A DNA stretch of 64,000 nucleotides, taken from NCBI GenBank assembly GCA_022616555.1, contig JAKEEG010000095.1:1-64000 (forward strand), read 5' to 3'. Of this stretch, positions 44,859 through 53,685 are shown piece by piece. Under the pieces are notes generated by a model that did not search any database, had not been told where the DNA came from, and saw only the letters and a program-made list of their open reading frames with translations. Made by a program: the position numbers and the translations under genes. Origin of the DNA: Ignavibacteriota bacterium (GTDB lineage: Bacteria > Bacteroidota > Ignavibacteria > UBA10030). Each line of letters begins with the position of its first letter. Within the stretch, counting starts at the first letter, position 1.

Positions 44859-45695
44859 ATGACAGACCGAATTATACGCGTCGGGCATAGCCCAGACCCC
44901 GACGATGCATTTATGTTTTACGGGCTTTCAAGCGGAAAAGTTAAGTTAGAAGGCATTACTATCGAACACGTCTTGCAGGACATCCAAACGCTGAACCAAC
45001 GCGCGATGACGGCTGAACTCGAAGTCACCGCAATTTCCGCACATGCCTTTCCCTATGTCTCCCAACACTACTGGCTCATGAAAACCGGGGCTAGCATGGG
45101 TGAAGGGTATGGTCCTGTATTAGTTTCTAAGCGCTATTCGTCACTGGAACAACTGAAAGGCAAAGTCGTTGCCACTCCCGGCAAATTGACGACTGCCACT
45201 TTGCTGTTCAAGATTTTTACTGAGGGCATGATGAACCTCGATATCCCATTCGACCAGATCATGGACCGCGTGGAGAAGGGCGAATTCGATGCCGGTTTGC
45301 TCATACATGAAGGACAAATAACGTATCAGGAACAGGGATTTAACAAGATATTAGATTTCGGCGAGCTTTGGGCGCGGTTATACGATAAACTCCCCCTTCC
45401 GCTCGGCTTGGATGTCGTGCGCAAAGATTTGGGTGAGGAGACTGCGACATCGCTTTCGGAGGGGCTTCGGCAAAGCATACATTACGGCTACACACATCAG
45501 AGTGAGTCGATTCCTTACGCTCTTGGTTACGGCAGAGGGATCAACGAAGACCTCGGGAGCAAGTTTGTCAAGATGTATGTAAGTGAATTAACTGTGGACA
45601 TGGGCGAGCGTGGTAAGCAAGCGCTCGAATTGCTCTACAAGCTAGGGTCGGAACGTAACCTGGTGCCGTCCGTGCCAGAATTGCGGCTGCTCTAA
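44859..45695 (+). CDS. mqnD: 1,4-dihydroxy-6-naphthoate synthase MqnD
   Basis: A 278-residue periplasmic-binding-protein-like enzyme of the futalosine pathway, converting cyclic dehypoxanthine futalosine to 1,4-dihydroxy-6-naphthoate. Family features are 'VGHSPDPDDAFMFYGL' at the N-terminus, 'ISAHAFPYV', 'GYGPVLVSK', 'VATPGKLTTATLL' and 'AGLLIHEGQITY'. It sits between menG and an amidohydrolase gene (4 bp gap). Confidence 0.93.
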   Translation: MTDRIIRVGHSPDPDDAFMFYGLSSGKVKLEGITIEHVLQDIQTLNQRAMTAELEVTAISAHAFPYVSQHYWLMKTGASMGEGYGPVLVSKRYSSLEQLKGKVVATPGKLTTATLLFKIFTEGMMNLDIPFDQIMDRVEKGEFDAGLLIHEGQITYQEQGFNKILDFGELWARLYDKLPLPLGLDVVRKDLGEETATSLSEGLRQSIHYGYTHQSESIPYALGYGRGINEDLGSKFVKMYVSELTVDMGERGKQALELLYKLGSERNLVPSVPELRLL

Positions 45696-45699
45696 AAAA

Positions 45700-46626
45700 A
45701 TGATCGGCATTTTCAAAATATTCGATAGCCACGTTCACTTCTACTCGAACTCCTTCTTCCGATTCCTCGTGAAGCAGAAACCGAACCGCGCGGATATTAG
45801 CACTGAGCTGAAGAACATTGCCGCAAAAGGGCATATCGAGATTCCCGGCGACGACCCCGTACAACTTGCAAAGCGCTGGATTGAGATCATTGACAAGTGG
45901 AAAATTGAGCGCCTCACACTCATCGGCAGCATGCCGGGCGACGAAGACTCCGTTATAAAAGCAGTACAGGCATTTCCAACGCGCTTTACCGGATTTTTTA
46001 CCGTTGACCCGAACTCAAACGTACTGATGGATAATGCCTCCAAGCGACTCAAGGAGGATAAACTACGGGGTTTTTTTCTTTACCCCTCCCTCTTCCATAT
46101 CAGCGTGCAGGATGAGTGGCTTGACCCGCTCTTTACACTAGCACAAGAATGTAGTTCCATTGTGTTCGTACAGTTCGGCAAGCTCGTCATCCGCCCCCGC
46201 GATTATGCGGGTATTCCCACGGCAGTCAACGAGGCGTTCGCAAATCCAGCCGATTTAATCCCGGTAGCGAAAAAATACGGGAAGGTCAAATTCATCATTC
46301 CGAACTTCGGCGCAGGAAAATTCGATGAAGTGCTACAGGTCGGTAAAGAATGTCCCAACGTCTATGTGGATACAGCCGGCTCTAATTCGTGGATGGCTGA
46401 CCATCCGTCGAAGCCCGATTTAAAGACGGTATTCAAGAAAGCGCTTGATGTGTACGGAGCAGGCAGGATGTTGTTCGGGTCGGATTCGGGGATGTTCCCG
46501 CGCGGGTATCGCTACGACATCGTTGACAACCAGTTGAAGCTTTCGCAGGAGATGCGCATCCCCACGCCGGATATCAAAAAGATTTTCTATGAAAACATGG
46601 CAGGACTGATTGATGGAGCAGTATAA
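45700..46626 (+). CDS. Amidohydrolase-2-like TIM-barrel protein with altered metal ligands
   Basis: A 308-residue protein resembling Amidohydro_2 (ACMSD-like) hydrolases/decarboxylases. It keeps 'FDSHVHF' (HxH) and 'LFGSDSGMFPRG' (Asp). At two other expected His positions it has Gln ('FVQFGK') and Asn ('IIPNFGAG'). Either the metal centre is different or the enzyme is not a standard hydrolase. It is 4 bp downstream of mqnD and precedes a terminator, so a menaquinone-related role is suggested by context only. The aminofutalosine-cleaving step (MqnB) is otherwise unassigned in the window. Confidence 0.75.
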   Translation: MIGIFKIFDSHVHFYSNSFFRFLVKQKPNRADISTELKNIAAKGHIEIPGDDPVQLAKRWIEIIDKWKIERLTLIGSMPGDEDSVIKAVQAFPTRFTGFFTVDPNSNVLMDNASKRLKEDKLRGFFLYPSLFHISVQDEWLDPLFTLAQECSSIVFVQFGKLVIRPRDYAGIPTAVNEAFANPADLIPVAKKYGKVKFIIPNFGAGKFDEVLQVGKECPNVYVDTAGSNSWMADHPSKPDLKTVFKKALDVYGAGRMLFGSDSGMFPRGYRYDIVDNQLKLSQEMRIPTPDIKKIFYENMAGLIDGAV

Positions 46627-46650: not shown

Positions 46651-46680
46651 AAAAGCCCGCCGTAAGCGGGCTTTTGCATT
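46651..46680. terminator. Bidirectional terminator between the two menaquinone operons
   Basis: AAAAGCCCGC (46651-46660) pairs with GCGGGCTTTT (46666-46675) around CGTAA. There are T- and A-rich flanks on both sides, and convergent genes end at 46626 and 46682. Confidence 0.85.
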
Positions 46681-46681
46681 T

Positions 46682-47779
46682 TTAAGCGGCAGTAGAAACG
46701 CGCTCTCGCACGTTAAGAATCTCATACAATGTTGTACGCTGCGCCGCATCAAATCCGGACTCATGAACGAGTTGCACACATTCCTCTGTATTGGTCTTGT
46801 TTACAAAATTTGCTGCGGCATGGACGTTCTCTTCCAATAGCGTCCCCCCGAAATCATCTGCGCCGAAGTGCAGGGCGATTTGCCCGGCTTTCTTGCCTTC
46901 AGAAAACCACGATGCCTGAATATGCTGGAAGTTATCCAAATAAATGCGCGAGAAGGCAATAAGCTGCTGGTAGCGCGTCGACGTAGCGTAATGTGGAATA
47001 ATTTTCTCAAGCGGAGTATTGCCCGGTTTGAACGACCAAGGAACAAACGCAGTAAACCCGCCTGTTTCATCTTGCAACTTCCTGACATACTCCAAATGCG
47101 TGACAATGTCCTCGTCGTTCTCTAGATGCCCGTACATCATAGTGGCAGTTGAGCGGTAACCGATGCGGTGAGCCTCGCGCATTACGTTGAGCCAGTCTTT
47201 GGAAGTCCCCTTTTTGCTGCTAATTTTTTTCTTCACGCGGTCTGACAGGATTTCTGCCCCGCCGCCGGGGATTGACCTTAAGCCCGCGTTCCACAAACGC
47301 TGGAGAACATCTTTCAGGGAAAGGCCTGACACCTGTGCCATGCCGATGATTTCGGACGTGGAGAAAAAGTGAGGATAGATTTCAGGGACTTCCTTCACGG
47401 TACGTCGCACCATCTCTTCGTAGTACTCAAACGACAACGCGGGATTCACGCCGCCTTGCAACAACACGGTAGTTACTCCCTTCGTCGCGGACTCGCGAAA
47501 CTTCTGCAGCATGTGGTCTACCGTATAGGTGTACTCGCCTTCTTCGCCCGGATGGCGGTAGAACGCACAAAAGATACAATCGATATTGCAGATGTTGGTA
47601 TAGTTCGGGTTGGTGTCAACCACGTACGTCACCTGCGGCTTCGGGTTCTTTTTAAAGCGAATCTCGTTCGCAAGGTCGCCCAAATCCAGCAACTCGCCGT
47701 TTTGCAGCACGAATAACCCTTCGGCTTGAGTAAGCCTGTCTCCGGCTCGGATTTTTTTATACAGTTGTTCTAACGTCAT
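46682..47779 (-). CDS. mqnC: Cyclic dehypoxanthine futalosine synthase MqnC
   Basis: A 365-residue radical-SAM enzyme with the [4Fe-4S] motif CxxxCxxC at Cys64, Cys68 and Cys71 ('CNIDCIFC'). Other markers are 'TTVLLQGGVNP', 'SIPGGGAEIL', 'YGHLEND' and 'HFGADDFGGT'. It cyclises dehypoxanthine futalosine. It is the last gene of a six-gene minus-strand operon and follows the TIR-like gene by 7 bp. Confidence 0.94.
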   Translation of the reverse strand: MTLEQLYKKIRAGDRLTQAEGLFVLQNGELLDLGDLANEIRFKKNPKPQVTYVVDTNPNYTNICNIDCIFCAFYRHPGEEGEYTYTVDHMLQKFRESATKGVTTVLLQGGVNPALSFEYYEEMVRRTVKEVPEIYPHFFSTSEIIGMAQVSGLSLKDVLQRLWNAGLRSIPGGGAEILSDRVKKKISSKKGTSKDWLNVMREAHRIGYRSTATMMYGHLENDEDIVTHLEYVRKLQDETGGFTAFVPWSFKPGNTPLEKIIPHYATSTRYQQLIAFSRIYLDNFQHIQASWFSEGKKAGQIALHFGADDFGGTLLEENVHAAANFVNKTNTEECVQLVHESGFDAAQRTTLYEILNVRERVSTAA

Positions 47780-47786
47780 GGTAATG

Positions 47787-48620
47787 CTATATGCTTATTT
47801 TGATGCCTTGCGCTTTCAGTTCTTTCATAATACTCAAGCTTGCTTCTTCCAACTTCACGACAATAGGCTTGATCGTAACACCCGGAATTGTTTTCGGGAA
47901 TTCAACATCCGACATGTGCAGCACACACACGCGCCCCTTCCCCAACTTGCCGACAAAATGCCCAAGCTCAAACATCGCGTACGAAATATCGTCTGTGTTG
48001 CAGATGAAAAACGCATATTTGGCTTCTTTGTGGTCTGCCAAATCATCCAGTGCGATCATTTTTCCGTGCACACGGTTCACTGGGATTTCCTTCAGACCCA
48101 CATCGTCTAAAAACATTGCTAGCTGTTGCCGCAACGGGTCGGTTTCCTCGCCGATAACATAGACAACGTTAGACTCTGCTGCCGGCACTGCGGCGGGTGG
48201 GGCTGCGGTTGCTGTTTCAGCCGCCGGTTTCTTCGGGGGCGGCTTGATGATTCTACCTGCTGTTGAAGGAGTTGAAGTCGCTTGCGCGGGGGCGGCTGCC
48301 TGAGCTGCAGCCGTGGGAGCCTGTGCTGCAAGGTCGGGTGACGCTTTTACTTTCTCGTACAGCTCTTTAACTTGATTAACAATCAACTGTGCCGAAGCTT
48401 GAAAAAAATATCCACCGTTCGCATCGCCTAGTATTTTCGTTTTATACGGAAATCCAATTGGGCCTACCTGCTCCAAAGCCTCCAGGCAAGCTTTCCGCCA
48501 CTCCAGGTATTTATTCTGGAGCCGCGCATTGTAGCCTGAAAACTCAAACCCACCCAAGGGCGCTAACTGCTGCCCCTGTGTAAGGAGTTCTTCTAATTTT
48601 GTGATGATACCTTCAGCCAT
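47787..48620 (-). CDS. TIR-like (CAP12/COG4271-type) predicted nucleotide-binding protein in the menaquinone operon
   Basis: A 277-residue, three-part protein. Residues 1-95 are a predicted helical domain ('ITKLEELLTQGQQL', 'YLEWRKACLEALE'). Residues 96-150 form an Ala/Pro-rich linker. Residues 150-277 resemble the TIR-like nucleotide-binding domain of CAP12/Pycsar-type proteins: 'VVYVIGEETDPLRQQLAMFL', 'YAFFICNTDD', then 'FELGHFVGKLGKGRVCVL' with Glu218 at the position equivalent to the TIR catalytic Glu, and 'ELKAQGI'. The loop between 'TDD' and 'FELG' is shorter than I remember for the family. It is 5 bp from mqnE/mqnA and 7 bp from mqnC, so it is transcribed with them. NAD-related activity or sensing is inferred, not shown. 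Confidence 0.75.
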   Translation of the reverse strand: MAEGIITKLEELLTQGQQLAPLGGFEFSGYNARLQNKYLEWRKACLEALEQVGPIGFPYKTKILGDANGGYFFQASAQLIVNQVKELYEKVKASPDLAAQAPTAAAQAAAPAQATSTPSTAGRIIKPPPKKPAAETATAAPPAAVPAAESNVVYVIGEETDPLRQQLAMFLDDVGLKEIPVNRVHGKMIALDDLADHKEAKYAFFICNTDDISYAMFELGHFVGKLGKGRVCVLHMSDVEFPKTIPGVTIKPIVVKLEEASLSIMKELKAQGIKISI

Positions 48621-48625
48621 GTCGT

Positions 48626-50497
48626 TTACGCTTTTACAACTTCCAGTGAACTTAACAGCTTTTCAAATACCTCGATTGCCTGCTTCTCGCGCTCGCCCAA
48701 CCGGTAGTTAAAACCTTCAAGATACTCGACAGCTTCTCCCAACTTCAATCCGAGCCGTTTCGCCGGGAGACTCGAAATACTTGCAAAGTTATTCTCGCCT
48801 TTTTCAAGCGAGGTCGTGATGATTGATTTCAGCTCGGCCTTCTGCTGATCGGGCATCGACTGCTTGACTGCCCAGACGGCAAACACAAACGGTAATTGCT
48901 GCCATGCGTACCATTCTGATGCGAGGTCGTACGTCAATTCAAAACCGTGAAGCCCGACAGTGTTATAGCGCAGCGCCTCGTCACCAATGAGCAGCACTGC
49001 GTCAAACTCAGAAAAATTATTCACGCCGGAGTGCATCCGTTTAAGACTCGCTTTCACTCCGTATTTTTTCTCCAGTAGTACTCGAAGCAACTGCACCGAG
49101 GTCGCCGTTTCGTCTGAAATGCCTATGGTCTTGCCGTCGAGGTCTTTCCAGCCTTGGTTCGAGAAAAGCATCACACTCTTGACCTGATCACGAGTGGCAA
49201 TGCACATTGGGAGCATCTCGAGCCGGTCACGTTGCTTCAAATAATCTGCGAGCGAAAATAACCCGACGTCGATTTGCCCCTGCTCTGCAAGCACACCCAT
49301 CCGGCGCGGCGTAATGGGCATAATCTTAAACTGACGTTTCTCAAAGTGATGGTAAAACGGTACAGAATTCAAATACGGTATCTTGCCAATCACCTTGTCG
49401 CTCTGGAGACTAAGCGGATTGTAATACACATCGCGCTCAACAGGAATTTTTCCGGCGTCTTTAATAATTCTTATGATCTGGTCTTTGGCGAGCGTCATCG
49501 GGCTAATGGCTCCGGCATCGTGTGCGATTTTCTCACCACCGACTGTGCCATCCATGTCATCGGCGCCAAAATTCAGTGCAATAGAGGCAACTTCTTCTGT
49601 CAGCATGACCCAGTATGCTTTAATGTGTGGAAAATTGTCCAACATGAGTCGCGACACCGATATCATCTTGAGATCTTCAATCGCCGATGTGTACTGTCCC
49701 GGAGGCTTAATGCCTGTATCCCCAGGCTGAAAGGCTAACGGAATGAATGTCAGGAAACCGCCGGTCTCATCCTGCGCCTCGCGTAGTTTGAGCATGTGCG
49801 TGACACGCTCTTCAATCGTTTCGACATGACCGTACAGGATTGTGCTGTTTGTCGGGATACCCAGTTTGTGTGCTGCTTTATGGACATCAAACCACGTCTT
49901 CGCCCCGATTTTATTATTGAAGAGCAAGCGCCGCACGCGTTCGGAAAACACCTCCGCTCCTCCGCCGGGCATCGTCCGCAAGCCTGCTTCTTTCAATTGA
50001 ATAAGAACATCTTCAATCGAGAATTTAAATTTCTTCGCGAAGAAGTCTACTTCGACAGCGGTAAACGCTTTAATATCGATGTTCGGGAAATTCTTCTTAA
50101 TCTGCCGCAGCATCTCGAGATAATATTCCCACTCCCAATCCGGATGCAAGCCGCCGGTGATGTGCACTTCGTGGATGTCCGGCGTCAGTTTGTGCAGAAT
50201 TTCGTGGATTGTCATCTCGTACGCGTCAGGCCTGCCGGCTTTCGTCGCAAAATCGCAGAACTTGCACGCGAGAACGCAGATGTTCGTCGGCTCAATCTTT
50301 TGATTCAACACGTAATACACGGCGTCACCGCTACGTGCTTTCTGCACCGTGTGGGCCATTTTTCCGATCGAAAGAATATCCTGCGAGCCAAACAACGTAA
50401 CGCCGTCTTCCAGCGTGAGTCGTTCTCCCGACTGAACTTTTTCCCAAATGGGAATTAATGCCTTATCACGAAAATGTATGCTATCAGACATGCTCAA
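48626..50497 (-). CDS. mqnE: MqnE-MqnA fusion: aminofutalosine synthase plus chorismate dehydratase
   Basis: A 623-residue protein with two futalosine-pathway enzymes in one chain. Residues 1-~365 are radical-SAM MqnE: CxxxCxxC at Cys74/78/81 ('CVLACKFC'), 'HITGGLHPDWEWEYY', 'TMPGGGAEVFSERVR', 'LNFGADDMDGTVGGE'. Residues ~368-623 are MqnA: 'IGKIPYLNSVPFYHHF', 'VGLFSLADYL', 'GISDETATSVQLLR', 'LLIGDEALRY'. MqnA dehydrates chorismate to 3-enolpyruvylbenzoate, and MqnE joins this to SAM to make aminofutalosine, so the fusion couples consecutive steps. The order is reversed relative to the reaction sequence. Confidence 0.93.
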   Translation of the reverse strand: MSMSDSIHFRDKALIPIWEKVQSGERLTLEDGVTLFGSQDILSIGKMAHTVQKARSGDAVYYVLNQKIEPTNICVLACKFCDFATKAGRPDAYEMTIHEILHKLTPDIHEVHITGGLHPDWEWEYYLEMLRQIKKNFPNIDIKAFTAVEVDFFAKKFKFSIEDVLIQLKEAGLRTMPGGGAEVFSERVRRLLFNNKIGAKTWFDVHKAAHKLGIPTNSTILYGHVETIEERVTHMLKLREAQDETGGFLTFIPLAFQPGDTGIKPPGQYTSAIEDLKMISVSRLMLDNFPHIKAYWVMLTEEVASIALNFGADDMDGTVGGEKIAHDAGAISPMTLAKDQIIRIIKDAGKIPVERDVYYNPLSLQSDKVIGKIPYLNSVPFYHHFEKRQFKIMPITPRRMGVLAEQGQIDVGLFSLADYLKQRDRLEMLPMCIATRDQVKSVMLFSNQGWKDLDGKTIGISDETATSVQLLRVLLEKKYGVKASLKRMHSGVNNFSEFDAVLLIGDEALRYNTVGLHGFELTYDLASEWYAWQQLPFVFAVWAVKQSMPDQQKAELKSIITTSLEKGENNFASISSLPAKRLGLKLGEAVEYLEGFNYRLGEREKQAIEVFEKLLSSLEVVKA

Positions 50498-50503
50498 TTC
50501 TCG

Positions 50504-52291
50504 TTATGACTGCCAGTATTCATCCCAACGATTATCCACTAATTTCACAATCTTTTCGTCCATAACCAACGGGTCGGGGTAACCTTTTTTCCATGTAGCG
50601 TCGATGCCTAAAATTCCTTTGTAAATTGGGGAGATTCCAATCAGCTTTTGCTCCGAGAAGATAACATCACGCTCACAATCAAAGCGGCAGAAGATACCCC
50701 AAATATAATTTTCTTCATCCCAGATATCGACGTCCTCGCTTACGGCGGCAATCAGTTTTATACCTTCAAGCTCCTTTTTCCTCACGAGCTTTTGTATAAC
50801 CTGTCGCCCTCCGCTTTTTACTTTCACAATAAGCAGTGTATTTTCGACAAAATGCAGATCACTAATTCTCTTGTCAAACGACTTCAATCGCTCGATCTGC
50901 TGTTTTAGCTGCACTGAGCTCATTCTAACCGAACTCACATCTCCGTCGCGGCTTTTTTTCCGCGTCGCATCCAGAATCATTTTGCTGCCAAGTTCCATCT
51001 TGTAGCTCGTGAAATCGAGTGTATCGAGAGGCACTTTCGGTAATAGCACAAAATCAAAATGCGGGACGAAATTCTTCCGAATCTCCCGCAGGACGGCTTT
51101 CCAGTCGTGCGGATTCACGTCTGCTGAAACCAGCACCAAGCATTTCGTGAGCGAAAGCTGTCCCGTGCCCAGCAATCCGAGCGCGGTTTTCATTGCTTCT
51201 TTCCGATAGCGTTCCTCAACAGATACGACGAGTAGGTTATGAAAGCCTGCCTCGTAGTACGCCCAAAGGCTCTTCACTTCTTTGTGAATCAGCCGTGCGA
51301 GCGGTCCCAAAATTTGCTGCGTCGTGTCGCCGAGATACTTGTCCTCCATCGGCGGCACGCCGACAACTGTTGCGGGATACACTGGGTTATTCCTCTGCGT
51401 TACAGTGCGCACATGAAACACCGGAAAAGGTGCCGCTTTGGAATAATGCCCAAGATGGTCGCCGAACGGCCCCTCCATCCTCCTCTCTTTGGGTGGAATA
51501 TGTCCCTCGAGTATAAACTCTGCATTCGCCGGTACGTCAATCGAAATCCGCTTTCCTCTGGTCAGCGGAATAGCCTGCCCTCTGAGAAACGACGCAAACA
51601 TCACTTCGTCAATTCCTTCCGGCAACGCGGAAATTGTGGCGATAAGCAACGCAGGGTCGGTCCCCAACACAACGCCGGCTTCCAATTCTTTGGCTTGTTG
51701 CTCCGCATGGTGATAATGCACTCCCCCTCCGCGCTCAATCTGAATGTGCATCCCGGTCGTCTGCTTGTCATATACGTGCAGACGGTACATGCCAACGTTC
51801 CTCTTTATGTCACGCGGGTCATACGTGAATACTTGCCCCATTGTGACAAAGCGACCGCCGTCCTTGGGCCAGCAGACCTGAATCGGCAGCTCGTCAAGAT
51901 TCGGCGCTTGCACCACCTGTTGTGCGACTCCGGAGGAAGCCCTGCGCGCACGCGCACCAAATAACCGGCTTACAAATCGTCGCTCTTTCCACAACATCCC
52001 CGGCTTCGGCGGCGTAATTCGATCGAAGAAGGAAATCAATTCCTCTCCGAATTGCTGCGGGTGCTTTCCGAGAGCGTGCTCAATGCGCCGCTCGCTGGCG
52101 TACACGTTCATGGCCACGGGGTAGCGTGAGCCTCTCACATTTTCAAAGAGCAGTGCGGGCTTCTGTTCTTTCAACGCCCGCGTCGCAATTTCCGTCAATT
52201 CGAGCCGGGGGTCAACTTCGACTTTCACGCGGTGCAGCTCGCCGATGGATTCGAGGTAGCGAACGAATTCGCCTAGCGCGAGGAAGCTCAT
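50504..52291 (-). CDS. UbiD-family prenylated-FMN decarboxylase (menaquinone branch)
   Basis: A 595-residue UbiD-like protein: 'GMYRLHVYDKQTTGMHIQIERGGGVHYHHAE' carries prenyl-FMN contacts, 'EFILEGHIPPKERRMEGPFGDHLGHYS' is the classical Glu-rich active-site region, and 'TWKKGYPDPLVMD' the C-terminal part. In futalosine organisms a UbiD homologue (MqnL-type) decarboxylates the prenylated 6-naphthoate. Its cofactor partner UbiX lies 3 bp upstream. Confidence 0.9.
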   Translation of the reverse strand: MSFLALGEFVRYLESIGELHRVKVEVDPRLELTEIATRALKEQKPALLFENVRGSRYPVAMNVYASERRIEHALGKHPQQFGEELISFFDRITPPKPGMLWKERRFVSRLFGARARRASSGVAQQVVQAPNLDELPIQVCWPKDGGRFVTMGQVFTYDPRDIKRNVGMYRLHVYDKQTTGMHIQIERGGGVHYHHAEQQAKELEAGVVLGTDPALLIATISALPEGIDEVMFASFLRGQAIPLTRGKRISIDVPANAEFILEGHIPPKERRMEGPFGDHLGHYSKAAPFPVFHVRTVTQRNNPVYPATVVGVPPMEDKYLGDTTQQILGPLARLIHKEVKSLWAYYEAGFHNLLVVSVEERYRKEAMKTALGLLGTGQLSLTKCLVLVSADVNPHDWKAVLREIRKNFVPHFDFVLLPKVPLDTLDFTSYKMELGSKMILDATRKKSRDGDVSSVRMSSVQLKQQIERLKSFDKRISDLHFVENTLLIVKVKSGGRQVIQKLVRKKELEGIKLIAAVSEDVDIWDEENYIWGIFCRFDCERDVIFSEQKLIGISPIYKGILGIDATWKKGYPDPLVMDEKIVKLVDNRWDEYWQS

Positions 52292-52294
52292 CAG

Positions 52295-52846
52295 TTATTC
52301 GAGTTCCTCCGAGCGCCAACCTTTCGATGAGCGCAAACCGATGATCCCGAGCAGTTTATCCACAAACGCATTGATGTACTCATCGACAGTTTTGGGAACA
52401 AAATACAATGGCGGTGAAATAGGCATTATGATCGCCCCAGCCCTCGAAAGCGCCGCACATTGCTCGACAGTAATTGTCGAAAGCGGCGTCTCACGAATGC
52501 ACAAAATCAGCTTATATCGCTCTTTGAGAGCGACCTGAGCCGTCCGCGTGATAAGCGTGTCCCCGATACCGGATGCGATTTTACCCAGCGTCGAGGTTGA
52601 GCACGGCAAAATGACGCATGCATCAAAATGATTCGAGCCTGATGCGAGCGGAGCAGTCAGGTCTTCGTCCGAAAATTGCCGCTTTACAGACGGAAGTAAA
52701 TCCTTTTCGCTAATCCCCAGCTCTTCTTTCAGGAGAACTTTCCCCCACTTACTGACAACAAGATATTTATCTGCATCACACTGTTTGAGGAATTCCGCCG
52801 CATACACAGCGCCCGATGAGCCCGTAATGCCAAGGACAATCCTCAT
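52295..52846 (-). CDS. ubiX: UbiX-family flavin prenyltransferase
   Basis: A 183-residue flavoprotein with 'VLGITGSSGAVYAAEFL' (FMN phosphate loop), 'VILPCSTSTLGKIASGIGDTLITRTAQVALKE' and 'LILCIRETPLSTITVEQCAALSRAGAIIMP'. It makes prenylated FMN for the adjacent UbiD. It overlaps the ubiA gene by 4 bp. Confidence 0.94.
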   Translation of the reverse strand: MRIVLGITGSSGAVYAAEFLKQCDADKYLVVSKWGKVLLKEELGISEKDLLPSVKRQFSDEDLTAPLASGSNHFDACVILPCSTSTLGKIASGIGDTLITRTAQVALKERYKLILCIRETPLSTITVEQCAALSRAGAIIMPISPPLYFVPKTVDEYINAFVDKLLGIIGLRSSKGWRSEELE

Positions 52847-53685
52847 TCGAAATAAACTCCAGCCATAACCATGGCAAGAACGACAAAGCCGAGCACGGCG
52901 TTGATTCTAAAAAATGCCAGCTCAACATCGTCCGCCTTCTTTTGCTCAAGATATAGCAGAAAGCCAGATGCAAAGAGAAAAGGCAAGGCAGCAATAGCTT
53001 TGATATAGATGATAAACAGTGCCGCCAAAATGCCGAAGGCAATGATATGCAGCAAGGCGGAAATTTTTAGCGCCCGCGCTTTCCCAAATTTCGAGCTGAA
53101 CGAATGAAGATTTTCTTGTCGATCGAACAACTCATCCAACGTCGAATAAATAATGTCGAATCCAGAGACCCAGAATAATGTGAAGAGCGAAAGCAGCACG
53201 CCGGGCAAGATATTATCGAACGACTGCTGCACGGCAAACCAGCCACCGAGCGGCGCCATTGCAAGCCCCAGCCCAACTCCGAAGTGCGCCAGCGGCGTGA
53301 AGCGCTTCATGTACGGGTACACAGTGAAAATAAACAAAGGCAGCGGAGAAAGATATAGACAGAACGGTCCAATCAGCGCTGCGGAAACAAAATAGAGCAG
53401 TAGGCTAAGTCCTAGTATACCCCTTGCCTGTGCAAGAGTTAGTTTGCCGCTGGGAAGTTCGCGTACTGCGGTGCGAGGGTTACGCTTATCGATTTCGCGG
53501 TCAATAATTCGGTTGAGCGCCAACGCTGCTGTCCGCGCTCCGGTTGCGCCAGCTAGGATCAATCCCAAAAGCCATAACGAGGGAAATTCTTTCGCCGCGA
53601 GGAACGCTCCGCTATAAATCAGTGGGAGCGAAAACAAGGTGTGCTCGATCTTGACAAAATTGAGGAAACTCTTAACCTGACTCAA
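52843..53685 (-). CDS. UbiA-family polyprenyltransferase (MqnP-like)
   Basis: A 280-residue integral-membrane prenyltransferase. The first Asp-rich motif lies in 'NRIIDREIDKRNPRT' and the second in 'DIIYSTLDELFDRQENLHS'. About eight hydrophobic segments are visible. In this operon it most likely attaches the polyprenyl tail to 1,4-dihydroxy-6-naphthoate, as MqnP does; 4-hydroxybenzoate use is the alternative from family membership alone. It is first in the six-gene operon. Confidence 0.9.
   Translation of the reverse strand: MSQVKSFLNFVKIEHTLFSLPLIYSGAFLAAKEFPSLWLLGLILAGATGARTAALALNRIIDREIDKRNPRTAVRELPSGKLTLAQARGILGLSLLLYFVSAALIGPFCLYLSPLPLFIFTVYPYMKRFTPLAHFGVGLGLAMAPLGGWFAVQQSFDNILPGVLLSLFTLFWVSGFDIIYSTLDELFDRQENLHSFSSKFGKARALKISALLHIIAFGILAALFIIYIKAIAALPFLFASGFLLYLEQKKADDVELAFFRINAVLGFVVLAMVMAGVYFE

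Follow-up and report, generated by a model that had tools for sequence, protein, structure and literature searches.

A conserved, probably domesticated TIR-like protein encoded among the futalosine-menaquinone genes of Ignavibacteriales

The TIR gene and its neighbours

The minus strand of the window (the whole 64,000-nucleotide stretch of DNA analysed here) carries at 47787..48620 an open reading frame of 277 aa with an ATG start, which encodes a TIR-like protein. The gene lies within the futalosine-menaquinone run of this Ignavibacteriales genome, in the minus-strand order UbiA, UbiX, UbiD, MqnEA, TIR gene and MqnC. Profile matches identified the other five genes as a ubiA/mqnP-like prenyltransferase gene (52843..53685), ubiX (52295..52846), a ubiD-like menaquinone decarboxylase gene (50504..52291), an mqnE-mqnA fusion designated mqnEA (48626..50497) and mqnC (46682..47779), all on the minus strand. 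The UbiD product scored 482.9 bits against 495.9 for menaquinone decarboxylase, and MqnC matched TIGR03699 at 457.5 bits, over the cut-off. The ubiA and ubiX genes overlap by 4 bp and the following gaps are 3, 6, 5 and 7 bp, the last two separating the TIR gene from mqnEA and mqnC, respectively. The open reading frame call and the profiles therefore bear out what a sequence-only reading had described, namely a 277-aa frame between mqnEA and mqnC within a six-gene run whose gaps or overlaps stay below 10 bp.

Terminator-like hairpins after metG (53794-53771) and beyond mqnC (46651-46675) frame the six genes as a single unit. The single promoter proposed in the same reading was not established: scanning the locus returned 6 promoter-like matches, with 6.3 expected by chance. 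A convergent unit on the plus strand comprises mqnD (44859..45695; PF02621) and, beside it, an Amidohydro_2 gene (45700..46626; PF04909), which is also found near the TIR gene in several relatives devoid of mqn genes. The neighbours of the TIR gene are mqn and ubi genes, metG, a DNA polymerase III subunit gene, the amidohydrolase gene and ubiE; no nucleotide cyclase, CD-NTase or other partner gene adjoined it among the locus neighbours checked.

Domain architecture and NAD pocket

The protein consists of three parts. The N-terminal domain (residues 1-97; 48330..48620, minus strand), modelled alone, is predicted to form a four-helix bundle (pLDDT 89, pTM 0.82). It carries the motif GGxExSGYNAxxQxxYxxWRK, has 17 invariant columns across two families and matched no fold in the PDB (best E 0.67). 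An Ala/Pro-rich linker (residues 98-148; 48177..48329, minus strand) is predicted to be disordered, with pLDDT below 50 at residues 100-148. The C-terminal part (residues 149-277; 47790..48176, minus strand) is a PF10137-type TIR domain lacking the CC-loop segment. PF10137 (CAP12-PCTIR_TIR) matched residues 155-251 with an E value of 5.6e-9 (36.5 bits versus a gathering score of 24.7), and the same profile reached E 0.1 or better in 19 of the 20 orthologues aligned. The nearest PADLOC family was PDC-S35 (2.5e-16, residues 138-276), and a profile-profile comparison of our family with PDC-S35-type TIRs extended over the whole C-domain (hhalign 99.5%, E 7.8e-23), while the PycTIR profile gave a weak match (1e-5). 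In the AlphaFold model, the TIR domain had a pLDDT of about 80-90, and the best seven PDB matches found by Foldseek were all TIR-STING chains (E 3.7e-4 to 3.5e-3), with 9lmq at the top. Taken together, the profile searches and the structure model agree in placing residues 149-277 in the TIR fold. The helical N-terminal domain, the Ala/Pro linker and the CAP12-type TIR-like domain that had been read from the sequence alone were thus all supported, and the Glu within FELGHFVGKLG is indeed residue 218.

In Sf TIR-STING, R78 and N80 form the NAD pocket with the catalytic E84 and with D110 from the partner subunit, and a CC-loop beta-hairpin insertion lies at the dimer interface (PMC9402430). A 2026 preprint takes the CC-loop extension as a common feature of CAP12-type TIRs (PMC13142454). 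Ten aligned PDC-S35-type relatives share invariant HG, E of HEQ, DD, RARQNV, E and PSD elements. The stretch from DD to Glu is 15 residues shorter in the Ignavibacteriales family than in those TIRs, with RARQN deleted, and HGHD and HEQ, which like RARQN are invariant or nearly so in the relatives, are missing as well. The alpha-C Glu motif is retained (YAMFELGHFVGKLG): Glu218 (47967..47969, minus strand), the equivalent of E84, was found in 29 of 30 sequences, including all 25 from the taxonomic family of the window's genome (hereafter the home family). The R78 equivalent is mostly Leu or Ile, mainly Leu. Tyr214 (47979..47981, minus strand; Tyr in 24 of 25 home-family sequences) occupies the N80 position. 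The D110 equivalent is mainly Asn or Thr, PTD/PSD having become PKN/PKT in most members, and is Asp in none of the 30. The one sequence with Ala in place of Glu218, in genome G049 (LIALGYLAGK; L070:8000-9028, plus strand), has a longer linker and adjoins intact mqn genes.

Because RARQN is gone and the R78, N80 and D110 equivalents are replaced while the Glu is kept in 29 of 30 members, the site is remodelled and not randomly decayed. The loss of the CC-loop segment and of the other polar NAD-pocket residues implies that the protein most likely no longer cleaves NAD, and normal NADase activity is unlikely judging from these alignments. That Glu218 is strictly conserved throughout the home family could, in turn, mean that catalysis on some substrate persists.

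Distribution and retention after loss of mqn genes

An orthologue is present in 31 of the 32 home-family genomes, the exception being a genome that is 55% complete. The gene is single-copy in this family and occurs also in five genomes of one sister family; it was not found in the other families of the order, which have mqn genes. Across the 296 phylum genomes searched, the full-length architecture is confined to these two families, and the public relatives of the protein are Ignavibacteriales/Ignavibacteria MAGs. Almost every member comes from a MAG, and in a few (G015, G023 and G025) the reading frame appears shifted or interrupted by a stop, mostly within the linker or close to it. The TIR gene adjoins mqnEA and/or mqnC in all 29 genomes having both, a count in which a few loci lie at contig ends with only one side visible. 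Distance correlation of the TIR gene with its neighbours was noisy (r 0.27 to 0.83), and we draw no evidence from it.

Seven home-family genomes have lost or broken mqnC/mqnE, and all seven keep the TIR gene. In G010, G012, G014, G023 and G024, neither mqnC nor mqnE was found, and G026 and G028 have a broken mqnC. The TIR gene in the mqn-less genomes still lies next to its old position downstream of metG. In G010, G012, G014 and G023, the Amidohydro_2 gene has also stayed with ubiE and the TIR gene. Thus, the linkage that the sequence-only reading had called fixed is close and repeated, and conserved among relatives, but not fixed. A concatenated tree places the losses as four separate events, namely G010, G012 with G014 and G023, G024, and G026 with G028; it joins G010 to the mqn-bearing genus g10 (support 1.000) and G026 to G028 (0.998). 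At least three losses were independent, and probably four; three is the safer count, as a MenA-like gene that is 94-96% identical in G024, G026 and G028 may have spread laterally. In G023 the linker of the TIR gene seems to be frameshifted; the copies in the other six mqn-less genomes are open. Between G026 and G028, dN/dS is about 0.13 (0.089/0.66), and the gene is under purifying selection where this is measurable. Retention is not universal: G040 and G053 of family f5, which lack mqnC, also lack the TIR gene. A rule that the gene is present wherever the pathway is present and absent where it is not failed in both directions, since the gene is missing from sister families that have mqn and persists in seven genomes whose mqn genes are not intact. 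Separately, the metG beside the TIR gene of G012 (L042:9087-11012, minus strand) codes for a methionyl-tRNA synthetase other than the window's (31% identity) and was probably replaced in place.

The mqn-less genomes that were tested all have complex I, and all but G024 have a COX1-type (haem-copper) oxidase. A replacement of mqn by the classical Men pathway was considered but not shown, as neither MenD nor MenB was found over the cut-off; the MenD search covered the seven home-family mqn-less genomes. Instead, MenA-like prenyltransferases were found. In G024, G026 and G028, such a gene occupies the former mqn site between metG and the TIR gene, directly upstream of the latter (L060:4874-5764, plus strand; L053:7027-7917, plus strand; L049:9378-10268, minus strand). 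G010 and G012 encode a fusion with PAS and MenA-like parts, both confirmed by NCBIfam profiles, and G014 and G023 have an open reading frame with the same start sequence; these frames, each with a PAS-like N-terminus ahead of a UbiA-family prenyltransferase of MenA type, lie at L210:6416-7690 (plus), L211:6846-8117 (minus), L212:5643-6899 (minus) and L213:162-1535 (plus). The fusion could be a quinone prenyltransferase that senses redox state or light. G010 and G012 each carry a classified UbiE, and the mqn-less genomes may take up the quinone precursor dihydroxynaphthoate.

A further feature of the order concerns the pathway itself. Among 53 genomes of the order, none had a futalosine hydrolase (MqnB) over the cut-off, and weak matches were confined to four. 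PF01048 proteins occur in each of 42 genomes, usually two per genome; those classified from the window's genome (two) and from G033 proved to be purine nucleoside phosphorylases, and G025 has an additional PF01048 protein that is MTAN-like below the threshold. The whole order thus appears to be devoid of a recognisable MqnB/MTAN glycosidase, leaving the aminofutalosine glycosidase step without a candidate over the cut-off.

Origin, role and relation to known systems

In sister families, the mqnEA-mqnC junction holds other cargo: a ParE toxin with a DUF559 protein in G055, a ParE toxin with a RelB/Phd-like antitoxin in G054, and open reading frames without an assigned family in G048 (occupied junctions at L101:1389-2231, L102:1522-2668 and L103:1342-3013), whereas it is directly closed in others. 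These contents mark the junction as an insertion-prone site in the sister families, which fits the capture of a defence-type gene followed by its domestication; the direction of capture is read only from what fills the slot there.

Our preferred reading, which we consider about equally likely to prove right or wrong, is that this site took in a defence-type TIR, which through domestication became a housekeeping adaptor or sensor without NADase activity. A PDC-S35/CAP12-like TIR would have entered between mqnEA and mqnC in the common ancestor of the two Ignavibacteriales families and then become a constitutive housekeeping protein, keeping the fold and the alpha-C Glu motif while losing the CC-loop segment along with the rest of the polar residues in the NAD pocket. 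The family-specific four-helix domain may bind protein partners or assemble the protein, and the remodelled pocket with Glu218 and Tyr214 may bind a nucleotide-like ligand or serve as an assembly surface. The product would then be an adaptor or sensor co-expressed with respiratory quinone genes and not dedicated to futalosine synthesis. The protein family, its architecture, the linkage, the missing motifs, the retention and the purifying selection are observed, whereas we infer the order of events, the loss of NADase activity and the adaptor/sensor role. Domestication is supported by the near-universal single-copy presence, the retention in all seven genomes, the low dN/dS and the invariant N-domain motif; by the consistent adjacency to mqn genes and the PDC-S35-type homology of the whole C-domain with its 15-residue RARQN deletion; and by the replaced R78, N80 and D110 equivalents beside a kept E84 equivalent, together with the toxin/antitoxin cargo at the same junction. 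The TIR-like protein is real, conserved and probably domesticated, and its retention where the surrounding mqn genes were deleted, along with the loss of most NAD-destroying parts, suggests recruitment for an ordinary cell function.

Neither a dedicated menaquinone factor nor an active suicide effector is the best reading of these data. That the protein serves MqnE/MqnC specifically as a regulator, chaperone or guard, which we hold to be quite doubtful, would explain why the gene adjoins mqnEA and/or mqnC wherever both are present and why it is absent from the two mqnC-less f5 genomes. However, sister families run the futalosine pathway without it, and such a partner was rejected as our main reading: seven genomes with lost or broken mqnC/mqnE still have the gene, which is under purifying selection wherever that was measured. 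For the same reason, a guard or sensor of futalosine-pathway synthesis itself is unlikely. A general function in respiratory quinone or redox metabolism, whichever pathway makes the quinone, is unlikely as a full account but credible: complex I and the MenA-like genes of the mqn-less genomes, with copies directly upstream of the TIR gene in three of them, make a respiration-linked role possible. Positional inertia after deletion would nevertheless give the same pattern, and sister families with mqn lack the gene. The sequence-only reading had offered a housekeeping or respiratory-status sensor; its general form, a housekeeping or respiration-related role, fits best given the complex I and mostly retained haem-copper oxidases, but a futalosine-specific sensor does not.

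That reading's other proposal, a defence effector monitoring quinone synthesis, is weakened. An active, PDC-S35-like NADase effector of abortive infection fixed in the operon, perhaps triggered by a collapse of respiration under phage attack, would account for the PDC-S35 and PF10137 matches, the conserved Glu218 and the Foldseek match to TIR-STING, but we consider it distinctly unlikely: the gene is vertical and near-universal in its family and has no adjoining cyclase or partner gene, the residues of the NAD pocket listed above and the HGHD, HEQ and RARQN motifs are lost, and G049 lacks even the Glu. It is very improbable that the protein replaces MqnB/MTAN as an enzyme of TIR/nucleosidase-like fold that uses the conserved Glu218 for catalysis, even though the gene sits between mqnE and mqnC, where the missing step falls in the pathway, and the window's genome has only phosphorylases among its PF01048 proteins. 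The hole is real but is shared by sister families that have mqn without the TIR gene, so the protein is at most a speculative candidate for the step, and we rejected this as the main reading; in addition, mqn-less genomes keep the gene, and the residues contacting ribose in the TIR pocket are changed. The extended version, a TIR-fold N-ribosyl hydrolase that cleaves aminofutalosine (perhaps also 5'-deoxyadenosine or MTA) and was kept after mqn loss for a second substrate, is just as improbable. If true, a defence-type TIR would have turned into a biosynthetic enzyme, giving a futalosine pathway without MqnB/MTAN.

Studies of bacterial TIR proteins have dealt almost exclusively with defence effectors that are sporadic and mobile and destroy NAD. 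The present protein is lineage-fixed, has a dismantled NAD pocket and is encoded in a core metabolic locus, where natural deletions have already parted its gene from the other operon genes. As a suicide-type immune domain probably domesticated inside bacteria, it makes a tractable case for study. The survey also exposes a pathway hole, an order that uses the futalosine route without a recognisable MqnB/MTAN, and repeated swapping of quinone pathways. Our literature search found no paper naming PDC-S35 and none containing both 'TIR domain' and 'futalosine'.

Among known systems, MqnB/MTAN (futalosine hydrolase and MTA/SAH nucleosidase) has nothing in common with the TIR protein but its place in the pathway, between MqnE and MqnC; it belongs to an unrelated family (PF01048), with no sequence similarity found. 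The Pycsar effector PycTIR resembles it in the weak TIR-domain profile match but has a different N-domain, and no nucleotide cyclase lies near the Ignavibacteriales gene. The CBASS effector CAP12 TIR-STING (7un8, 9lmq) shares the TIR fold and the alpha-C FExG with Glu218 at the E84 position, whereas the Ignavibacteriales protein is without a STING domain, a cyclase partner, the CC-loop beta-hairpin insertion and R78/N80/D110. Closest is PDC-S35, a single-gene PADLOC defence candidate with a helical N-domain and a C-terminal PF10137 TIR, of similar size and domain order and homologous over the whole C-domain. The two N-domains look alike by eye (a Leu-rich helix and a Trp) but are not recognisably related (hhalign 2-3%), and the RARQN/CC loop, HGHD and HEQ are missing from the Ignavibacteriales protein. 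At 1e-15, PDC-S35 was matched in 21 of the 296 phylum genomes, a few of these matches being members of the Ignavibacteriales family and not typical PDC-S35. PDC-S35 is sporadic, whereas the Ignavibacteriales TIR gene is chromosomally fixed.
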